Assembly (NCBI GenBank): GCA_029977845.1
Contig: JAPOKC010000011.1
Coordinates: 1 to 64,000, forward strand
Length of the DNA: 64,000 bases
DNA from: Mycobacteriaceae bacterium
GTDB lineage: Bacteria > Actinomycetota > Actinomycetes > Mycobacteriales > Mycobacteriaceae
Direction: 5' to 3'
In this document: in pieces, positions 3,029 to 61,687 of the stretch
Layout of the letters: each line of letters opens with the position of its first letter
How positions within the stretch are numbered: the first letter of the stretch is position 1
Notes under the pieces: model-generated
Databases searched by the model: none
The model's input: the letters and a program-made list of their open reading frames with translations, nothing else
Told to the model about the DNA's origin: nothing
Program-made: the position numbers and the translations under genes

Positions 3029-4804
3029 GTGTTCCCAGGGCGCCAGGACCCGCTGGAGAAATCGCTGCTGCCCTATTCCAACCAGGGGACGCATGAGGGA
3101 CCCATCATCGTCGAGGACTGGGCCGGGGGTATCGCACCGGTTAGGGCCGAACTGCCGTCGGTGCGCATCGGCAGGCGGTGGTTCTCCAGCCTGTGGCTGA
3201 TCCCGATCGGGATCGCTGCTCTGGTGGTGTCCATCGCGGTGGTGCGCGAGCTGGCGACCCAGCAGTGGTTCCACGAGTTCATCACCCGCTACCCGGGCAC
3301 CTCCACGCAGTACGTCGAACCGGTCACCGGAGGGTTTCCCTGGTGGCTGCGCTGGCAGCACTTCCTGAACCTGCTGTTCATGATGTTCATCATCCGGGCC
3401 GGCATCCAGATACTGGCCGACCATCCGCGGCTGTACTTCAACGCCGGCAGTAGGCCTGACACCGAATGGTTGCGGTTGCGCGGTGCGGTCCCACCCGATC
3501 GCCGGGACTGCAATGACGCCGACGCGGTGTGGACCGCCAAGGAGGACTCGGTCGCGCTGCCCAGGCATCTGGGCCTGCCGGGATTTCGGCACTCGATCGG
3601 ACTCGCCCGATGGTGGCACTTCAGCTTCGATCTGCTCTGGCTGATCAACGGGGTGCTGTTCTACATACTGCTGTTCAGCACAGGGGAGTGGAAGCGACTG
3701 ATTCCCAACTCTTTTGACGTCTTTCCCAACGCGCTGTCGACGGCGTTGCAGTACCTCTCACTGCAACTGCCGGAGAACGCCGGCTTCAGTTCCTATAACG
3801 CGTTGCAACTGCTGGCGTACTTCATCACCGTGTTCATCGCCGCGCCGGTGGCCCTGGTGAGCGGACTTCTGCAGGCGCCGTCGATCGCGGGCCGGTTCGG
3901 CACCGGCGCAGGCCTGCTGAATCGTCAGGTGGCCCGGACGGTCCACTTCGGTGTGCTGATCTGGATGCTGGTCTTCATCGCCGTTCACACCCTGATGATC
4001 TTCGTGACCGGATTCGTCCGGAACGTCAACCACATCACGTTGGGTACCGACACCAGGTCCTGGACCGGCGTCGCGCTGTACCTCGCCTGGACGGGTGTCG
4101 TCGCGGTCTTCTGGTTCGCCGCGTCGCCGGTGACCACCAGGCATCCCCGCGCGATCCAGAAGGCGGGCCGGTTCGTCATCGGATGGTTCAAGGGACTGTT
4201 GGAGAACACCAACCCGACTGCGACGTACTCCGAGTCGGATATCTCACCGTATTTCTGGCCCAACGGCGAGCGCCCGCACTCGGATGCCTACGAACGGCTC
4301 AAGGCCGGCGGCTGGGCCGGCTACGCACTGCGGGTCGATGGCCTGGTCGCCAATCCCGTCGAGATCAGTTACTCGGAACTGCTTGCCATGCCCAAACAGG
4401 AACAGATCACCCAGCACTTCTGCATCCAGGGCTGGTCCGGCATCGCCAAGTGGGGCGGAGTTCCGATGCGGCACATCTGTGATCTCGTCGCACCGGCGGC
4501 CGAGGCCAAATGGGTGGTGTTCTACTCGTTCGCCGATGGTCCGGTGGGTGGGCGCTACTACGACTGCCATCCGATCGAGAGCATGTACCACGATCTGACG
4601 ATCCTGGCCTACGAGATGAACGGCGCACCGCTCAACGAGTCGCACGGAGCGCCGCTGCGCCTTCGCGACGAGGTCGAACTCGGCTTCAAACAGGTGAAGT
4701 GGATCGAGGCGATCGAATTCGTGGAGTCATTCGAGACCCTCGGCGCCGGACAGGGCGGCTACAACGAGGATCAGGAGTTCTACGGCTACCGGATGCCGAT
4801 CTAG
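3029..4804 (+). CDS. Membrane cytochrome b-like domain fused to a sulfite-oxidase/YedY-type molybdopterin oxidoreductase domain
   Basis: N-terminal TM helices with His residues (RWWHFSFDLLWLINGVLFY; VHFGVLIWMLVFIAVHTL), C-terminal SUOX-like ITQHFCIQGWSGIAKWGGVPM. Confidence 0.82.
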   Translation: MFPGRQDPLEKSLLPYSNQGTHEGPIIVEDWAGGIAPVRAELPSVRIGRRWFSSLWLIPIGIAALVVSIAVVRELATQQWFHEFITRYPGTSTQYVEPVTGGFPWWLRWQHFLNLLFMMFIIRAGIQILADHPRLYFNAGSRPDTEWLRLRGAVPPDRRDCNDADAVWTAKEDSVALPRHLGLPGFRHSIGLARWWHFSFDLLWLINGVLFYILLFSTGEWKRLIPNSFDVFPNALSTALQYLSLQLPENAGFSSYNALQLLAYFITVFIAAPVALVSGLLQAPSIAGRFGTGAGLLNRQVARTVHFGVLIWMLVFIAVHTLMIFVTGFVRNVNHITLGTDTRSWTGVALYLAWTGVVAVFWFAASPVTTRHPRAIQKAGRFVIGWFKGLLENTNPTATYSESDISPYFWPNGERPHSDAYERLKAGGWAGYALRVDGLVANPVEISYSELLAMPKQEQITQHFCIQGWSGIAKWGGVPMRHICDLVAPAAEAKWVVFYSFADGPVGGRYYDCHPIESMYHDLTILAYEMNGAPLNESHGAPLRLRDEVELGFKQVKWIEAIEFVESFETLGAGQGGYNEDQEFYGYRMPI

Positions 4805-51314: not shown

Positions 51315-51413
51315 ATCGGAGTTTGCCCCCGCACCGATTCTGTGCACGTTTTTCAAGTAGGCTCGCGGTCGCCCGCCGATCGGACGGCGGCGCTAGAGGA
51401 GGTAACACAAGTC

Positions 51414-51956
51414 GTGGGAGACACACTCACCGCAGGACAGAAGCTGGGTAGGGGCGATTCGCTCACCTCGAAGAACGGGGCATACACCCTGACCCTGCAG
51501 GAGGACGGCAATCTGGTTCTGGCAGCGCGCGGCGAGGCCGTGTGGGCGACCGGCACCAACGGACAGGGCGGCGATCGCGCCGAGGTCCAGGGCGACGGCA
51601 ACTTCGTGCTCTATGCCGGTGACAAGCCGATCTGGCACACCGACACCAAGGGCAAGAAGGACGTCAAGCTGGTCATTCAGGACGACCGCAACGTGGTGCT
51701 CTACGCGGCCGACGGTGCCGCCTGGAATTCGCGCACCGACACCGACGCGCCGCCGCCGGAGGAGAAGGTGGAGATCATCGAGGTGGCCCCGGTCGCCGTC
51801 GAGTCCCGGACCCACACCGTCGTCGCTGGTGACACATTGTTCAACATCGCCAAGCAGTACCTGGGCGACGGCAACCGCTACCCGGAGCTGGCCGCCCACA
51901 ACGGCATCGCCAACCCGGACCACATCGAGGTCGGCCAGGTCATCAATATCCCCTGA
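51414..51956 (+). CDS. Bulb-type (B_lectin) domain plus C-terminal LysM protein
   Basis: TLQEDGNLVLAARGEAVWATGT, GDGNFVLYAGDKPIWHTDT, QDDRNVVLYAADGAAWNS; LysM THTVVAGDTLFNIAKQYLGDGNRYPELAAHNGIANPDHIEVGQVINIP; GTG start. Confidence 0.88.
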   Translation: MGDTLTAGQKLGRGDSLTSKNGAYTLTLQEDGNLVLAARGEAVWATGTNGQGGDRAEVQGDGNFVLYAGDKPIWHTDTKGKKDVKLVIQDDRNVVLYAADGAAWNSRTDTDAPPPEEKVEIIEVAPVAVESRTHTVVAGDTLFNIAKQYLGDGNRYPELAAHNGIANPDHIEVGQVINIP

Positions 51957-52083: not shown

Positions 52084-52776
52084 GTGGTGGCCGGTTTCCT
52101 GCGTTCCGTCGTTCTCGCAGCGATGGCCGGGGCCGCGACGATGTCATCTCTTGCGCCGATCGCCGCGGCCGACACCGCAGGACCGGTGGTGTCACCGGGT
52201 ATGGAGATCCGCCAGGGGCTGACCATGTGCACCCTGGGTTTCGTCGACCCGGTTTCGCGCGTCGCCTTCTCGGCCGGCCACTGCAATGCAAGCGGCGCGG
52301 TCACCGACCGCAACGGCAGGTTCATCGGCGTAGTGACGAGCGCCCGGGACAACACCCCTGACGGCACCGTCGTCCGCACCGACCAGGTCATCTCCGACTA
52401 CGAGACGATCAGCCTGGCCTCCGACGTCAGGATCAACAACATCCTTCCGAGCGGCCGGGCGCTCGTCGCCGAAACGACCGCGCCCCTGGCGGCAGGCCAG
52501 CCGGTCTGCCATTTCGGCATCGTCACCGGCGAGAGCTGCGGCAGCATCGAGCGGGTCAACAACGGCTGGTTCACCATGGACAACGGCGTGGTCAGCCAGA
52601 AGGGCGATTCCGGCGGCCCGGTCTACGCGCTGACCGACGACGGCAAGGCGTTGATCATCGGCCTGTTCAACAGCACCTGGGGCCGGCTGCCGGCGGCGGT
52701 CTCCTGGCAGGCCACCGGCCAGCAGCTGCGCGAAGACACCGGGCTGGCCGTCGTGAGTGTCGCAGCCAAGAACTAG
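52084..52776 (+). CDS. Secreted trypsin-like serine protease (S1 family; Rv1815-like)
   Basis: Signal peptide; SAGHCNASG (His), QKGDSGGPVYAL (Ser). Confidence 0.85.
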   Translation: MVAGFLRSVVLAAMAGAATMSSLAPIAAADTAGPVVSPGMEIRQGLTMCTLGFVDPVSRVAFSAGHCNASGAVTDRNGRFIGVVTSARDNTPDGTVVRTDQVISDYETISLASDVRINNILPSGRALVAETTAPLAAGQPVCHFGIVTGESCGSIERVNNGWFTMDNGVVSQKGDSGGPVYALTDDGKALIIGLFNSTWGRLPAAVSWQATGQQLREDTGLAVVSVAAKN

Positions 52777-52789
52777 AACACGTTCTAGT
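52772..52789. promoter_or_regulatory. KstR-type TetR operator palindrome
   Basis: ACTAGAAC-AC-GTTCTAGT, perfect 8-bp arms with 2-bp spacer; contains TAGAACACGTTCTA matching TnnAACnnGTTnnA. Confidence 0.75.
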
Positions 52790-52823
52790 GTTTCGCCCCA
52801 CCCGGCGATAGTGTCTTCAGGCT

Positions 52824-54317
52824 ATGAGCGGACTCGACGTCCCCGCCGCGATAAACGCCTCCGATGTGACCGAGTGGTCCGATGAGGTGGATGTCGTCGT
52901 CATCGGGTTCGGCATAGCCGGCGGATGCGCGGCGGTGTCGGCGGCGGCCGAGGGCGCCACTGTGCTTGTGCTCGAACGTGCCGCCGCCGCAGGCGGGACC
53001 AGTGCCATGGCCGGCGGTCACTTCTATCTCGGTGGCGGCACCGCCGTTCAGCAGGCGACCGGCCACGCGGACAGCGCCGAGGAAATGTACTCCTACCTCG
53101 TCGCGGTATCCCGGGAACCGGACCGGGAGAAGATCCGGGCCTACTGCGAGGGCAGCGTCGAACACTTCAACTGGCTCGAAGCGCTGGGATTTCAGTTCGA
53201 GCGAACGTTCTATCCCGGCAAGGTCGTCGTGCCGCCGGGCACCGAGGGCCTGTCCTACACCGGCAATGAGAAGGTCTGGCCGTTCATCGAGATGGCCGAG
53301 CCCGCGCCGCGCGGTCACTCGGTACCGGTGCCCGGGGAGCTCGGTGGCGCGAAGATGGTCATCGACCTGTTGGTCAAGCGAGCCGACGAACTCGGGGTCC
53401 GGTTCCGCTACGAGACCGGGGCGACGAACCTCGTGGTCGATGACGGCGCCGTGGTCGGGGTTATGTGGAAGCACTTCGGCGATCGCGCAGCGGTGCGGGC
53501 CAAATCGGTCATCATCGCGGCGGGCGGGTTCGCGATGAACCCGGAGATGGTCGCGCAGTACACCCCCGCACTCGGGCAGAAGCGGCGAACCAAGCACAGC
53601 GGTGAGGTCGAGCCCTACATCCTGGGCAATCCGCACGATGACGGTCTGGGCATCCGGCTGGGGATGTCGGCGGGCGGCCGGGTCTGCAACCTCGATCAGC
53701 TGTTCATGACGGCCGCGCACTATCCCCCCGAATGTCTGGTGACCGGAATCATCGTGAACAACGAGGGAAAGCGTTTCGTCGCCGAGGACTCCTACCATTC
53801 CCGGGTCGGGGCATTCGTCCTCGAGCAGCCGGATCAGGAGGCCTACCTCATCGTCGATGAGGAGCACACCGACATGCCGCCGCTGCCGCTGATCAAGTTC
53901 ATCGACGGTTGGGAGACCGTCGAGGAGATGGAGTCCGCACTCGGAATCCCGAGCGGGAATCTCGTCGCCACGCTCAACCGGTACAACGAACACGCCGCCA
54001 AGGGTGAGGACCCGGATTTCCATAAACAGCCGGAATACCTTGCGGCACAGGATCATGGCCCGTGGGCGGCATTCGATCTGTCTCTGGGCCGAGCGATGTA
54101 TTCGGGCTTCACGATGGGCGGACTGTCTGTCTCCCTCGACGGTGAGGTGCTCGGTGAGAACGGCACACCGATCCCGGGGCTGTACGCGGCCGGAGCGTGC
54201 GCATCGAATATCGCTGAGGACGGCAAGAGCTATTCCAGTGGTACGCAGTTGGGCGAGGGCTCGTTCTTCGGCAGGCGCGCCGGGGCGCACGCGGCAGTAG
54301 GCGCCAAGGCGCGCTAA
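52824..54317 (+). CDS. FAD-dependent oxidoreductase, FAD_binding_2/3-ketosteroid dehydrogenase-like flavoprotein (Rv1817-like)
   Basis: VDVVVIGFGIAGGCAAVSAAAEGATVLVLERAAAAGGTSAMAGGHFYLGGGT; C-terminal GLYAAGACASNIAEDGKSYSSGTQLGEGSFFGRRAG. Confidence 0.88.
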   Translation: MSGLDVPAAINASDVTEWSDEVDVVVIGFGIAGGCAAVSAAAEGATVLVLERAAAAGGTSAMAGGHFYLGGGTAVQQATGHADSAEEMYSYLVAVSREPDREKIRAYCEGSVEHFNWLEALGFQFERTFYPGKVVVPPGTEGLSYTGNEKVWPFIEMAEPAPRGHSVPVPGELGGAKMVIDLLVKRADELGVRFRYETGATNLVVDDGAVVGVMWKHFGDRAAVRAKSVIIAAGGFAMNPEMVAQYTPALGQKRRTKHSGEVEPYILGNPHDDGLGIRLGMSAGGRVCNLDQLFMTAAHYPPECLVTGIIVNNEGKRFVAEDSYHSRVGAFVLEQPDQEAYLIVDEEHTDMPPLPLIKFIDGWETVEEMESALGIPSGNLVATLNRYNEHAAKGEDPDFHKQPEYLAAQDHGPWAAFDLSLGRAMYSGFTMGGLSVSLDGEVLGENGTPIPGLYAAGACASNIAEDGKSYSSGTQLGEGSFFGRRAGAHAAVGAKAR

Positions 54318-56212
54318 GACCCGTTAGGCGACAGCTCCCAGGTGCCGTCCCCGTGCAACCGCAGATGCTGGTCATGGTGCTGGATGACGGTTCCGCGGTG
54401 GGTGACCGACACCATGATGCTGTGCGGAAGGCGGTTGCGGACCAGCTGGTAGAGCGCGAACTCGTTGCCCTCGTCGAGTGCGGAGGTGGACTCGTCGAAG
54501 AAGATCACCTTCGGCCGGTACAGCAGGACGCGGGCGAACGCCACCCGTTGCTGCTCGCCGGGGGAGAGCACCTTCGACCAGTCCTCGCTCTCGTCGAGGC
54601 GGCCGGCCAGATGACCCAATGAGACCTCGTCGAGGGCGGTGATCAGTCGGTCGTCCGGTATCTCCCGCTCGGTGTGCGGGTAGGTGAGTACGGCGCGCAG
54701 GTCACCCAGCGGCAGATAGGGCACCTGGGACAGGAACATCGCATCGTCGTCCCCGCCGGGGCGGCGCAGTGTGCCGGTGCTGTAAGGCCAGAGCTGGGCG
54801 ATGCTGCGCAACAGCGTGGTGCGCCCGCAGCCCGACGGCCCGGTGATGACGAGTGACTCACCGGGCAGCAGCCGCAGGCTGAGGGTCTGGAGGAGCTGGC
54901 GCCCCGACGGGTCGCGCACCTCCAGATTGATCAGCTCCAATGAGCCGTCCGGGCTTTCCTGCACCGCAACCCGCGGCAGTTCGCGAGCGTCCTCATTGGC
55001 CTCGACCAGACCGTACAACCGGATGACCACGGCCCGGTAGGCGGCGAACGAGTCGTACACGGCCCGGAAGAATGACAGCGAGTCGTGCACGCTGCTGAAC
55101 GCGCTCGCGGACTGGGTGACGTCACCGAAGGTGATCTGACCCTTGAACAATCGCTGTGCCTGGATGACCAGCGGCAGCGGATTGATCACCTGACTGATCG
55201 AGTTGTTCCAGCCGAGCAGTGCGAGATTGCGCAGCACGAAGCTGCGGTAGTTGGTGATGATCGCTGAAAAGCGATGTCGCAGAACGGAATCCTCGGCATG
55301 CTGCCCGCGGTAGAAGCTGATCGACTCCGCTGCGTCACGCATCCGCACCAGTGCGTAGCGGAAGGCGGCATTGGTCAGTTCGTTGCGGAAGCTGAACAGG
55401 ATCAGTGGACGGCCGATCCAGAATGCGATCGCCGTGGTGGCGAACACGTACAGCAACGCGATCCAGAACAATGCGTGCCCCAGGGTGACGCCGAAGACGG
55501 TCAGCGGACCGGACAGGTTCCACAGGATCGGGGTGAAAGCCGCCACCGAGACCATCGCGTTGATCGCACCGAACGGCAGCGTCGCGATGGTGCCGACGGT
55601 CGGGGTGTTGGGGCCCTGTCCGGTGCAGGTGGTGAAGGAGTCGATGTCGATCTGGATGCGCTGGTCCGGATTGTCGATCGGCTGGTCCAGAAAGCGGCCC
55701 CGGTAGAACGCCTCTTCGTCCAGCCAGTCGCCGGTGAGCCGATGGGTGAGCCATACCCGCCAGCGGATGATGAAGCGCTGCGTGAGATAGATGTCGACGA
55801 TCTGGCGGCCGACGTAAAGGGTGGCGATCAGGGCGAAGGTCAGGATCGCCGTCCAGAAACCGCGCACCCCGGAATTGCGCACCGCCTCGTTACCGGCCCC
55901 GGCGCCCTCGAACGCGGTCTGCAGGGATGAGTAGAGGTCATTGCTGAAATAGCTCAGCAGCACGTCGAGGCGGACCGCGATCAGGACCGAGAACAACAGC
56001 GCGCCCAGCCAGGCCCACACCGCGAGACTGTCGCGGCCGCGGAAATAGTCGCCGGTGACCCGCCAGAACTGCCGGCCCCAGCCGGTGTATCGGGCCAGCA
56101 GTCCCAGGACCAGTACGGCGGCGATCGCGGTGATCACCCATGCCTTGGCCGCCCACAGCAGCGAGTGCGGGATCTCTCCTGCCCAGTCCAGGGACGGCTT
56201 GTAGGTCTCCAT
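54314..56212 (-). CDS. ABC transporter permease/ATP-binding protein, SbmA/BacA-like (Rv1819c-like)
   Basis: Six-TM SbmA/BacA-type domain; Walker [40 protein letters not shown]. Confidence 0.9.
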   Translation of the reverse strand: METYKPSLDWAGEIPHSLLWAAKAWVITAIAAVLVLGLLARYTGWGRQFWRVTGDYFRGRDSLAVWAWLGALLFSVLIAVRLDVLLSYFSNDLYSSLQTAFEGAGAGNEAVRNSGVRGFWTAILTFALIATLYVGRQIVDIYLTQRFIIRWRVWLTHRLTGDWLDEEAFYRGRFLDQPIDNPDQRIQIDIDSFTTCTGQGPNTPTVGTIATLPFGAINAMVSVAAFTPILWNLSGPLTVFGVTLGHALFWIALLYVFATTAIAFWIGRPLILFSFRNELTNAAFRYALVRMRDAAESISFYRGQHAEDSVLRHRFSAIITNYRSFVLRNLALLGWNNSISQVINPLPLVIQAQRLFKGQITFGDVTQSASAFSSVHDSLSFFRAVYDSFAAYRAVVIRLYGLVEANEDARELPRVAVQESPDGSLELINLEVRDPSGRQLLQTLSLRLLPGESLVITGPSGCGRTTLLRSIAQLWPYSTGTLRRPGGDDDAMFLSQVPYLPLGDLRAVLTYPHTEREIPDDRLITALDEVSLGHLAGRLDESEDWSKVLSPGEQQRVAFARVLLYRPKVIFFDESTSALDEGNEFALYQLVRNRLPHSIMVSVTHRGTVIQHHDQHLRLHGDGTWELSPNGS

Positions 56213-56316
56213 GGCTGCCCACGACACCACACAAATGGGGGATGGCATACCCGACCCACTATATGCATACTTGTGCAATTAGATTGATCGGCGGAATCGC
56301 GCCGGAAGGAGACCGC

Positions 56317-57318
56317 ATGAGCCCCCTCGTCGCAGTGGCTGCCGTCCTGTCCATCGTGATCGGCATGGCGGTCGGCACCCTCGGCGGTGGCGGCTCCATC
56401 CTCACCACGCCGCTGCTGGTCTACCTGTTGGGCTTCGGCGCCAAGCAGGCCATCGCCGCCAGCCTCTTCGTCGTCGGCGTGACCTCGATCTTCGGCCTCC
56501 TCGGCCACGCCCGGGACGGCCGGGTGATCTGGCGCACCGGTCTGCTGTTCGGCTTCGCCGGCATGATCGGCGCCTTCCTCGGCGGTCAGGTGGGCCAGCA
56601 TCTTCCCGGCCCGGTGCTGCTCGGCGCCTTCTCCATCATGATGGGCGTCACCGCCGTGGCGATGATCCGTGGCCGGCAGACGGTCAAGGGGCACGGGCCG
56701 GGTAAAGGCCTGCCACTGTTTCGCATCCTCGGCGACGGGTTCATCGTCGGTCTGGTGACCGGCCTCGTCGGCGCCGGCGGCGGGTTCCTGGTGGTGCCCG
56801 CCCTGGCCCTGCTCGGCGGACTGCCGATGCCGAACGCGGTCGCCACCTCGCTTCTGGTGGTCGCGATGAAATCCTTCTCCGGGTTCTTCGGTTACCTGTT
56901 GCAGTTCGGAGGGCCGGAAGGCTTCGTGCACCTCAATCCGCACACCACGGTGAACTGGCCGGTGACCCTTGTCGTCACCGGCGGCGCGATAATCGGCGCG
57001 CTGAGCGGCTCACGGTTGGTCGGCAAGATTCATCCGGACAAGTTGCGCAAGGGATTCGGCTACTTCGTCCTGCTCATGGCGGTGTTCATCCTCAGCCAAC
57101 AGATCGGTGACACCATCGTCGATTACGCCAGTGGCGGCATGGTCAACATGGCCCAGGTGATCGGTGCCTCGGTGGCGATCATCGCCTTGTTCACCTGGGT
57201 GATCCGTCGGCCCGCGCAGGTGGCCATCGCCGATTTTGACGAACCGGAGATCGCGCTGGAGTCACCCGATGACGCGCCGACCGGGTCAGCCGGTGACCGC
57301 CGGTTCGACCGCACCTAG
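56317..57318 (+). CDS. TauE/SafE family sulfite exporter-like permease
   Basis: [62 protein letters not shown]. Confidence 0.92.
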
Positions 57319-59196
57319 ACGCCACTCGCCTTCACCGCGCAGTTCCAGGTGTTGGTCGTGATGCTGCTCGATCGAGGGCCGGTGGCTGACGCTGACCAGG
57401 ATGGTGTCCGGCAGTTCGGTTCGGACAAGCTCGTAGACGGCGTACTCCAGTCCCTCATCGAGGGCCGAGGTGGCCTCGTCGAGGAAGGCGGCCTTCGGTT
57501 TGGTCAGCAGGATGCGGGCGAAGGCGATCCGTTGCTGCTCGCCGGGGGACAGCACTTTGGCCCAGTCCTCGTCCTCATTGAGGCGCGAAGTCAGATGTGA
57601 CAGAGCGACTTTGGTCAACGCGCTCTGGATCTCCTCGTCGGGGATTTCTCCGGACTTGGAGGGATAGGACACCACGGTGCGCAGGTCACCCAGTGGAACG
57701 TAGGGCATCTGGGACAGGAACATCGTCTGGTTCTCTTCGACCGGCCGGCGCACGGTGCCAGTGGTGTACGGCCACATCTGGGCGATGCTGCGCAGCAGTG
57801 TGGTCTTTCCGCTACCGGAAGCGCCGGTCACCACCAGAGCGTCGCCGGGTTTCAGGCGCAGATCCAGGGGATCCACCAGTTGGCTGCCACTGGGGGTGCG
57901 CACCTCGACCCGCTCGAGTTGCACCGAACCGTCGGGGCTGGCAAGGGTCTCCAGGCTCGGCATCTCGCGGGCGTTGTCATTGGCCTCGACCAGACCGTGC
58001 AGGCGGATGATGACGGCCCGGTAGGCGGCGAACTGGTCGTAGGCGTTGCGGAAGAACGACAGCGAGTCGCTGATGTTTGAGAAGGCGCTCGAGGACTGGG
58101 TCACGTCGCCGAAGTCCATCTCCCCCTTGAACAATCGTGGCGCCTGCACGATCAGCGGCAGCGGTGTGATGATCTGGCTCATCGCGAGGTTCCACCCGGT
58201 GAAGCCCAGGGTGCGGCGAACGAAGCGACGGTAGTTGGTGATGATGTTGTCGTAGCGGGTCTTCAGCAGTCCGCGTTCGGTGCTCTCGCCGCGGTAGAAG
58301 CCGACGGCCTCGGCCGCGTCGCGCAGCCGCACCAGCGCGTAGCGGAAAGCCGCGTTGGTCAGCTCGTTGCGGAAACTGAGCCGGATCAGCGGCCGGCCGA
58401 TCCAGAACGCCACCACCGTCGCGAGGAACACGTAGACGAACGCGACCCAGAACAGCGCGCGCTGCAGGGTGAAGCCGAACACCGTCACCGGCCCCGACAG
58501 GCTCCACAGGATCGGGACGAAGGCAACCACGGTGCACACCGACGAGATGGCCCCGAACAGCAGCACCGAGCCGGTCCCGACGGTGGGCGAGTTGGGCGAG
58601 GAGCCCACCCCGGTGGTGAAGACGTCGACGTCCTGCTGGATGCGCTGGTCGGGGTTGTCGGTGTCGGCATCGGTGAAGCGGGCCCGGTAGTAGGCGTGGT
58701 CGCTGAGCCAGTCGCCGGTGAGCCGGTCGGTCAGCCAGGTGCGCCAGCGGATGATGAAACGTTGGGTCAGGTAGATGTCGAGCATCACCTGGCTGATGTA
58801 GATGGTGGCCAGGATCCCGAAGATGATCAGCGCGAACCAGAAACCGTCAATCGCCTCGTTCTGGATCTCGGTCTCATTGGCGGCGTAGGCCTCGAACGCC
58901 TTCTGCAGTGCGGTGTAGAGATCATTGCTGAAATAACTCAGCAGGACGTTGATCCGCACCGAGATCATCACCGAGAGCAACAGCACACCCAGCCAGGCCC
59001 AGATCCGCATCGATGAGCGGCCCCTGAAGTAGTCGCCGGTGACCCGCCAGTACTGGCGGCCCCAGACGGTGAAGCGCCCCAGCAGCAACAGCACCACCAG
59101 CGTGAGGACCGCGGCGATCGCCCAGGCCTTCAGGATCCAGATCATCGACGGCACGAACTCGGCGCCCCAGTCCATGGACGGTGTGTAAGGCTCCAA
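57286..59196 (-). CDS. ABC transporter permease/ATP-binding protein, SbmA/BacA-like, second paralogue
   Basis: Close paralogue of 54314-56212 ([32 protein letters not shown]...; [54 protein letters not shown]); likely TTG start ([10 protein letters not shown]). Confidence 0.88.
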
Positions 59197-59308
59197 CGCG
59201 CTCTCCTCCCGGCGGGACCTTTCCGGCGAAGCTACCTCAGCATGTTGGTGAGCCGCTGCGGACCTGGCCTGAAATGGGATCGGGATCCCCGCCGGTACCG
59301 TTGTGCGC

Positions 59309-61687
59309 GTGGCGAAGAGTTCGAAGAAGACCGCGTCCGGGTCCAACCGGCTGAGCCGGGGTTTCTGGCGGCTGCTGGGCGCGAGCACCGAGAAGGTCAA
59401 GGCGCAGTCGATGACCGAGGTGAACAACTCGGCCGAGTTCGATGAGAAGGCCAAGGGTCTCGACGACGAGCAACTCGCCAAGGCCGCCAGGCTGCTGAAC
59501 CTGGAACGCCTGGCCGACGCACCTGATGCCGCGCAGTTCCTGGCCATCGCCCGGGAGGCCTCGGAACGGTCCATCGGTCTGCGGCCTTTCGACGTCCAGC
59601 TGCTCGGAGCGCTGCGAATGATGGCGGGCGACGTCGTCGAGATGGCCACCGGCGAGGGCAAGACCCTCTCCGGTGCGATCGCCGCCGCCGGGTACGCCCT
59701 GGCCGGACGCAATGTTCATGTGGTGACCATCAACGACTACCTCGCCCGGCGCGACGCCGAGTGGATGGGCCCGGTGATCGAGGCGATGGGCCTGACGGTC
59801 GGGTGGATCACCGCCGAGTCGACACCGGAACAACGCCGCGCGGCGTATCAGTGCAACGTCACCTACGCCTCGGTCAACGAGATCGGATTCGACGTCCTGC
59901 GCGACCAGTTGGTGACCGATATCGCGGACCTGGTGTCGCCCAATCCCGATGTGGCCCTCATCGACGAGGCCGATTCGGTGCTCGTCGACGAGGCGCTGGT
60001 GCCGCTGGTGCTGGCGGGCACCACGCACAAGGAGACACCGAAGCTCGGAATCGTCAGGCTGGTCGGTGAATTGGTCGCCGACAGCGCGAGCCTGCCGGAA
60101 AGCGAGCAGTACTTCGCCACCGACGCCGACAGCCGCAATGTGCACCTCACCGAAGCCGGCGCGCAGCGACTGGAGAAAGCGCTCGGCGGTATCGACCTGT
60201 ACTCCGAGGAGAACGTCACCACCACGCTGACCGAGGTCAACGTGGCGCTGCACGCCCACGTACTGCTGCAACGCGATGTGCACTACATCGTCCGCGACGG
60301 CAGGGTGCAACTGATCAACGCCTCCCGCGGGCGTATCGCGACCCTGCAGCGCTGGCCGGACGGACTGCAGGCGGCGGTGGAGGCCAAGGAGGGCATCGAG
60401 ACCACCGAGACCGGTGAGGTGCTCGACACCATCACGGTGCAGGCCCTGATCAACCGCTACCCGACGGTGTGCGGGATGACCGGCACCGCGCTGGCCGCCG
60501 GTGAGCAGTTGCGGCAGTTCTACAAACTCGGGGTCTCACCGATCCCGTCGAACGCACCCAACATCCGGGTCGACCAGGCCGACCGGGTCTACATCAACAC
60601 CGGGGCCAAGAACGACGGGATCCTCGACCACATCATCGAGGTGCACGCCACCGGACAGCCGATCCTGGTCGGCACCCACGATGTCGCCGAATCCGAGGAT
60701 CTGCACTCCCGCCTGGTCCGTCGCGGGGTCCCGGCCGTCGTCCTCAACGCCAAGAACGACGAGGAGGAGGCCCGGGTCATCGCCGAGGCGGGCAAGCTCG
60801 GCGTGGTCACCGTCTCGACCCAGATGGCCGGCCGCGGCACCGACATCCGGCTGGGCGGCTCTGATGTCTCCGACCAGTCCGCCGAAAAAGAAGAAGTCGC
60901 CGACCTCGGCGGCCTGCACGTGGTGGGAACCGGACGGCACCGCACCGAACGGCTGGACAACCAGCTGCGCGGCCGCGCCGGTCGGCAGGGCGACCCCGGC
61001 TCGTCGATCTTCTTCTCCAGCTGGGAGGACGACGTGGTGGTGGCCCACCTGGAGTCCAACAAACTGCCGATGGAATGCGACGAGACCGGCCGGATCACCA
61101 GTCCCAAAGCCGCCGAACTGCTCGATCACGCCCAGCGGGTCGCCGAGGGACGGCTGCTTGACGTGCACGCCAACACCTGGCGTTACAACCAGCTGATCGC
61201 CCAGCAGCGGTCGATCATCGTCGAGCGGCGCAACGACCTGCTGAGCACCCCGACGGCACGCGAGGAACTCCGTGAGCTCTCACCGGAGCGCTATGACGAA
61301 CTCGCCGCCGCTCTCGGTGACGGCGCCGAGGAGGACCTCGAACGGATCTGCCGCAAGATCATGCTCTTCCACCTCGACCGCGGCTGGGCCGATCACCTGG
61401 CCTACCTCTCCGACATCCGGGAGAGCATCCATCTGCGCGCGCTGGGCCGGCAGAACCCGCTGGATGAGTTCCACCGGATGGCCGTGGACGCGTTCACGAA
61501 CCTGGCCGCAGACGCCATCGAGGCCTCGCAGCAGACCTTCGAGACGGCCAATGTGCTCACCGACGAGCCCGGGCTGGATCTGTCCAAGCTGGCCCGGCCG
61601 ACCTCGACGTGGACCTACATGGTCCACGACAACCCGCTGCGCGACGACACCCTGTCGGCGCTGAGTCTGCCGGGGGTGTTCCGCTAG
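59309..61687 (+). CDS. secA2: Accessory Sec translocase ATPase SecA2
   Basis: [61 protein letters not shown]; ends [14 protein letters not shown] as in mycobacterial SecA2; GTG start. Confidence 0.96.

Follow-up and report, generated by a model that had tools for sequence, protein, structure and literature searches.

We put the probability at roughly 80 per cent that the 18 bp palindrome at positions 52772-52789 of the window (the whole stretch of 64,000 nucleotides that was analysed) is a KstR operator repressing a sterol-inducible gene, and that this gene encodes a probable C4-C5 desaturase of 3-keto-5alpha-steroids. The palindrome, ACTAGAACACGTTCTAGT, has perfect arms of 8 bp each (ACTAGAAC/GTTCTAGT) around a 2 bp centre, AC, and is separated by 34 bp (52790-52823) from the ATG at 52824 of the gene (52824-54317, + strand) for an FAD-dependent dehydrogenase. 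In these respects the sequence and coordinates given in the initial annotation proved exact. The palindrome had also been described as adjacent to the protease stop; it is more than adjacent, in that the TAG (52774-52776) of this upstream gene lies within the palindrome, which thus overlaps the last codon and the stop. The identification of this element as a predicted KstR operator is strongly supported by its sequence, its matrix score and its retention at orthologous promoters.

The palindrome was scored with a symmetrised position matrix derived from the 43 KstR sites in Table 3 of Kendall et al. 2007 (PMC1995591). It scored 31.7, compared with a possible maximum of 33.1 and with values between 18.4 and 31.9 for the sites used in training; the runner-up in the window, at 3792 (a weaker match covering 3794-3807), scored 15.0. 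The motif TNNAACNNGTTNNA was found twice in the window (0.10 expected), whereas the 18-mer, when as many as three mismatches were allowed, was found, on both strands, at a single location (0.01 expected). Thus a palindrome of the type TnnAACnnGTTnnA / TAGAACnnGTTCTA, as expected of a KstR target, lies 5' of the dehydrogenase gene.

A putative -10 element, TAGTGT (52809-52814, + strand), was recognized by reading the sequence and from the aligned promoters of relatives, which have TATCCT or TATTGT at the same place. Assuming a 17 bp spacer, the -35 position falls at 52786-52791 and is covered by the operator. With only 9 bp between the putative -10 element and the ATG, the transcript probably has little or no leader. 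A scan for the plain sigma-70 consensus detected no promoter, which was counted against the KstR explanation; in mycobacteria, failure to match this consensus says little. The upstream gene (52084-52776, + strand) encodes a serine protease of the Rv1815 family (NF051463, 298 bits, cut-off 175), showing that the locus corresponds to the Rv1815-Rv1817 region. Control of the protease gene by the operator is not thought to occur. Further upstream, the frame 51342-51956 (+) encodes a protein that combines a LysM domain with a region resembling bulb lectins (72 bits with NF033557, below the cut-off). On the other side of the dehydrogenase gene, inspection of the translations by eye revealed two similar ABC-transporter-type frames (54314-56278 and 57286-59712, both on the - strand), which look like a duplication and flank a frame for a TauE-like membrane protein (56140-57318, +).

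The product of 52824-54317 is an FAD_binding_2 protein of the Rv1817 type belonging to NCBIfam NF005508 (PRK07121.1-1), whose cut-off of 537 bits it exceeds with 948 bits. The curated model of this flavoprotein type names it only as 'FAD-binding protein'. The closest solved structure was 4at0, the 3-ketosteroid-delta4-(5alpha)-dehydrogenase of Rhodococcus jostii (E value 3e-108, 366 bits, residues 11-491); the next structure match scored 119 bits. The window protein thus combines the FAD-binding fold of the PRK07121 group with full-length likeness to 4at0, as is expected of a delta4 enzyme. The delta1 enzymes (KstD) were not the closest match: 4c3x and 7p18 scored 102 and 70 bits, with E values of 1e-28 and weaker. 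Tyr319, Tyr466 and Ser468 (chain numbering minus 20) are, we assume, the catalytic residues of the delta4-(5alpha)-dehydrogenase. In the window protein the aligned positions are Y324, Y470 and S472, and out of 160 orthologs these residues are retained by 160, 159 and 159, respectively.

The window protein was also considered as an ortholog of the characterised enzyme, ro05698, and this was ruled out by the NCBIfam models. It reached only 426 bits with NF005512, the subfamily of the characterised enzyme (cut-off 812), and the characterised enzyme reached only 391 bits with NF005508 (cut-off 537). Since neither protein passes the cut-off of the other's model, the two represent sister subfamilies, with 46% identity. 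The enzyme is therefore described as a predicted 3-ketosteroid-delta4-(5alpha)-dehydrogenase that would work like the characterised one without being a member of NF005512. The annotation 'Rv1817-like enzyme of unknown function' is partly out of date, given that 4at0 is the nearest structure and that PMC6593523, with reference to van Oosterwijk 2012, describes the delta4-(5alpha) activity of Rv1817 itself as confirmed by experiment.

Among the alternatives, the one that survives best accepts the operator as real and proposes that the enzyme merely shares the regulon, acting on a non-steroid or a different steroid substrate, or as a delta1 enzyme. The separate subfamily, whose model the characterised enzyme fails, speaks for this, and 46% identity would allow a change of substrate. 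We consider it unlikely, however, taking into account that the three residues aligned with the presumed catalytic set are invariant or nearly so, that no other solved structure matches nearly as well as the characterised enzyme, and that the statement on Rv1817 just cited points the same way.

The repressor and its regulon were looked for in selected stretches of the MAG from which the window derives (2.79 Mb, 73% complete). KstR is encoded in it (NF033703, 324.8 bits, cut-off 280); the best solved match of this protein was M. tuberculosis KstR (5ua2), and the helix-turn-helix stretch was nearly identical, so that a KstR with a conserved DNA-binding domain occurs in the same genome as the palindrome. 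Across the MAG, TAGAACNNGTTCTA was found at 5 places and not at all when read backwards as a control, and TNNAACNNGTTNNA at 24 places versus 8 for the same type of control. A site scoring 31.8 is located between kstR and a divergent acyl-CoA dehydrogenase gene taken as fadE34, sites scoring 29.2 and 26.1 precede fadD8 and an Rv3520c-type F420 gene, respectively, and hsaA is preceded by two sites (26.0 and 23.1). The twin hsaA sites match the double site described at Rv3570c/Rv3571 (PMC1995591).

These data also bear on whether the palindrome could be bound by another TetR-family regulator, for example one of the Rv1816 type, rather than by KstR. Many TetR proteins bind palindromes beside their own genes, and in many relatives (L006, L047, L155) an Rv1816-type gene is situated between the protease and the dehydrogenase genes; an Rv1816 operator sequence was not found in the parts of the literature that were searched. 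No Rv1816-type regulator is encoded near the window gene, however, and a search of the MAG gave no homolog, an absence that counts for little with 73% completeness. More telling against another regulator, the same class of 18-mer is present at kstR, hsaA and other KstR targets of the MAG, and the published KstR motif, which was built without the window site, fits the palindrome almost perfectly. Binding by another TetR protein is thus improbable, and KstR is the preferred regulator.

The initial annotation had proposed to check the orthologous promoter in other mycobacteria. Loci scanned included 80 orthologs from named genomes, which were the most similar ones, and further loci, 28 of them picked for divergence. 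A strong site (score of at least 18) was present within 700 bp upstream in 112 of the 158 loci having enough upstream sequence, a frequency biased by the choice of loci according to similarity and divergence. In the same 158 loci, no strong site was found in a stretch of the same length inside the gene, and none in any draw with 12 column-shuffled palindromic matrices. In the 80 loci nothing outside the promoter region scored above 14. Mean information per column was 1.76 bits in the site, compared with 0.25 bits in the 40 bp to its left and 0.72 bits to its right. When 60 Mycobacterium genomes carrying the gene were taken by handle number, 32 had a strong site, 24 a weak asymmetric one and 4 none. 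In other genera of the family (g19, g11, g9, g18) the site is found directly before the dehydrogenase gene, thus it is retained at orthologous promoters beyond Mycobacterium as well. Although short palindromes do arise randomly and this one overlaps a coding end, a functionless chance occurrence has a negligible probability in view of the expectation of 0.01 in the window, the conservation across species with much less conserved flanks, and the failure of shuffled matrices to find any match. The match to the KstR operator claimed in the initial annotation was thus borne out by the score, by KstR and its canonical targets in the MAG, and by promoter conservation.

Two side observations were made during the survey of orthologs. 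The contig of locus L050 (JAKIXW010000085.1), from a MAG labelled Acidobacteria, carries this mycobacterial locus with approximately 80% protein identity and is probably mis-binned. Some genomes encode an additional, more divergent dehydrogenase copy with 66-67% identity (G205:C42:1432-2871 and G224:C1:4086330-4087772).

Most of the Mycobacterium loci in the first set have the operator, ACTAGAACACGTTCTAGC, approximately 520-560 bp before the dehydrogenase gene. There it is some 50 bp ahead of a gene of roughly 160 codons for a VOC-family protein (Pfam Glyoxalase_4, weakly methylmalonyl-CoA-epimerase-like), whose end overlaps or lies near the dehydrogenase start (L006:3519-3995 and the majority of orthologous loci). 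In the window this VOC gene is missing, with only a 35% relative elsewhere in the MAG (73% complete), and the dehydrogenase ATG of the window occupies the place of the VOC ATG in the relatives. The direct arrangement of operator and dehydrogenase gene seen in the window was also found in L236 and L243 and in outgroup genera, and the VOC-less loci L069, L219, L222, L054 and L164 appear to retain remnants of the VOC 5' end. A strong operator was kept in 24 of the 34 VOC-less entries, thus the operator usually persists without the VOC gene and follows the dehydrogenase gene. Parsimony on a FastTree tree gave 12 changes of VOC state and 9 changes of strong-site state, indicating that the operator and the VOC gene are gained and lost independently of each other. 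A scan reaching only to -400 bp had detected the operator in few loci and suggested that a local TetR had been replaced by KstR. This idea was dropped when the whole-locus scan located the operator at about -535, before the VOC gene, in most genomes.

In many genomes, including those of the slow growers M. genavense, M. triplex, M. gordonae, M. asiaticum and M. ahvazicum, a lopsided box (e.g. ATTAGAACGTGTTCACCC) with a score of 10-16 was found in place of the operator. Its distance is at least about 600 bp from the dehydrogenase gene and roughly 110 bp from the VOC start, and it would not overlap the -35 region. This conserved, lopsided KstR-like box, of the ATTAGAACRTGTTCACCC type, was observed outside the core promoter, approximately 60 bp upstream of the operator position of fast growers; its distance from the dehydrogenase gene was about 600-730 bp in L028, L032, L047, L053, L057, L080, L192, L210, L212 and others. 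One genome with the gene order protease-TetR-dehydrogenase and a PGRS-type neighbour, which we take to be the M. tuberculosis arrangement, has ATGAGAACGTGTTCACCC with a score of only 7.2. This low score fits Table 3 of Kendall et al. (PMC1995591), which contains no M. tuberculosis site near Rv1817; the lack of such an entry was counted against the KstR explanation.

We tentatively propose, as a possibility with the odds against it, that KstR control represents the ancestral condition of this gene in the family and later changed in a large mycobacterial group to which the named slow growers belong, where the ATTAGAACRTGTTCACCC type box would have replaced the operator and sterol control would have been lost or changed. 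This proposal is based on the position of the box, where RNA polymerase would not be blocked in the same way. The conservation of the box suggests that it is still read, either by KstR acting in a different way or by some other factor. The altered site in this group offers a testable case of regulon change.

The near-perfect KstR site before the gene, retained in roughly half of the mycobacteria and also in some related genera, makes membership in the sterol-degradation programme very probable, and the sterol-regulon assignment made in the initial annotation can be strongly inferred from the operator score, the KstR gene and canonical regulon observed in the same genome, and the conservation across lineages. 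Binding, repression, induction and the enzymatic reaction are inferred from these observations and from the protein comparisons, and could be combined as follows. KstR is a repressor whose dimer blocks promoters by binding to such palindromes (PMC1995591). At the window locus, a KstR dimer over the -35 region of the dehydrogenase promoter would keep the gene off. Breakdown of sterol side chains would generate the inducer, which would be either 3-oxo-4-cholestenoic acid, the reported inducer of KstR in M. smegmatis (cited in PMC4881515), or the corresponding CoA ester. KstR would then leave the operator, and the dehydrogenase gene would be expressed together with the other genes of the cholesterol regulon. 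The enzyme would probably desaturate C4-C5 of 3-keto-5alpha-steroids, so that 5alpha-reduced sterols and stanols could join the ordinary delta4-3-ketosteroid route.

The site, kept over long evolutionary distances, ties the Rv1817-type flavoprotein to the sterol regulon and leads to the prediction that a delta4-(5alpha)-desaturase is produced by many environmental mycobacteria when sterols are supplied. This bears on the use of stanols and other 5alpha-reduced steroids by mycobacteria and on phytosterol-converting production strains.

With the KstR regulon of M. tuberculosis and M. smegmatis (PMC1995591), the window locus and its MAG share the operator sequence, its position over the promoter, the repressor, and the core kstR/fadE34, hsaA and Rv3520c-type targets. 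Rv1817 has no entry in Table 3 of Kendall et al., so the window gene adds to their published lists; in the group containing the named slow growers the sites are lopsided and further upstream. The enzyme resembles ro05698 of R. jostii RHA1 (PDB 4at0/4at2) over its full length and shares with it the residues at the three aligned catalytic positions, but the two belong to NF005508 and NF005512, respectively. In Nocardioides simplex, the delta4-(5alpha)-dehydrogenase gene KR76_24505 is listed under KstR and as induced by cholesterol and lithocholate (PMC7593942). That gene resembles the window gene in its enzyme superfamily, in forming its own transcription unit and in its KstR control, which for the window gene is predicted; it differs in being called an ortholog of the R. 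jostii enzyme and not, like the window gene, a member of the Rv1817-type sister subfamily, and N. simplex, unlike the source of the window, is from a genus outside the mycobacterial family. For a steroid-converting Mycobacterium, 57 KstR operons have been predicted (PMC6593523), and the orthologous operon may already be among them. Taking into account the published KstR-listed enzyme of N. simplex and these 57 predicted operons, the window locus extends a known regulon rather than representing a new kind of system.
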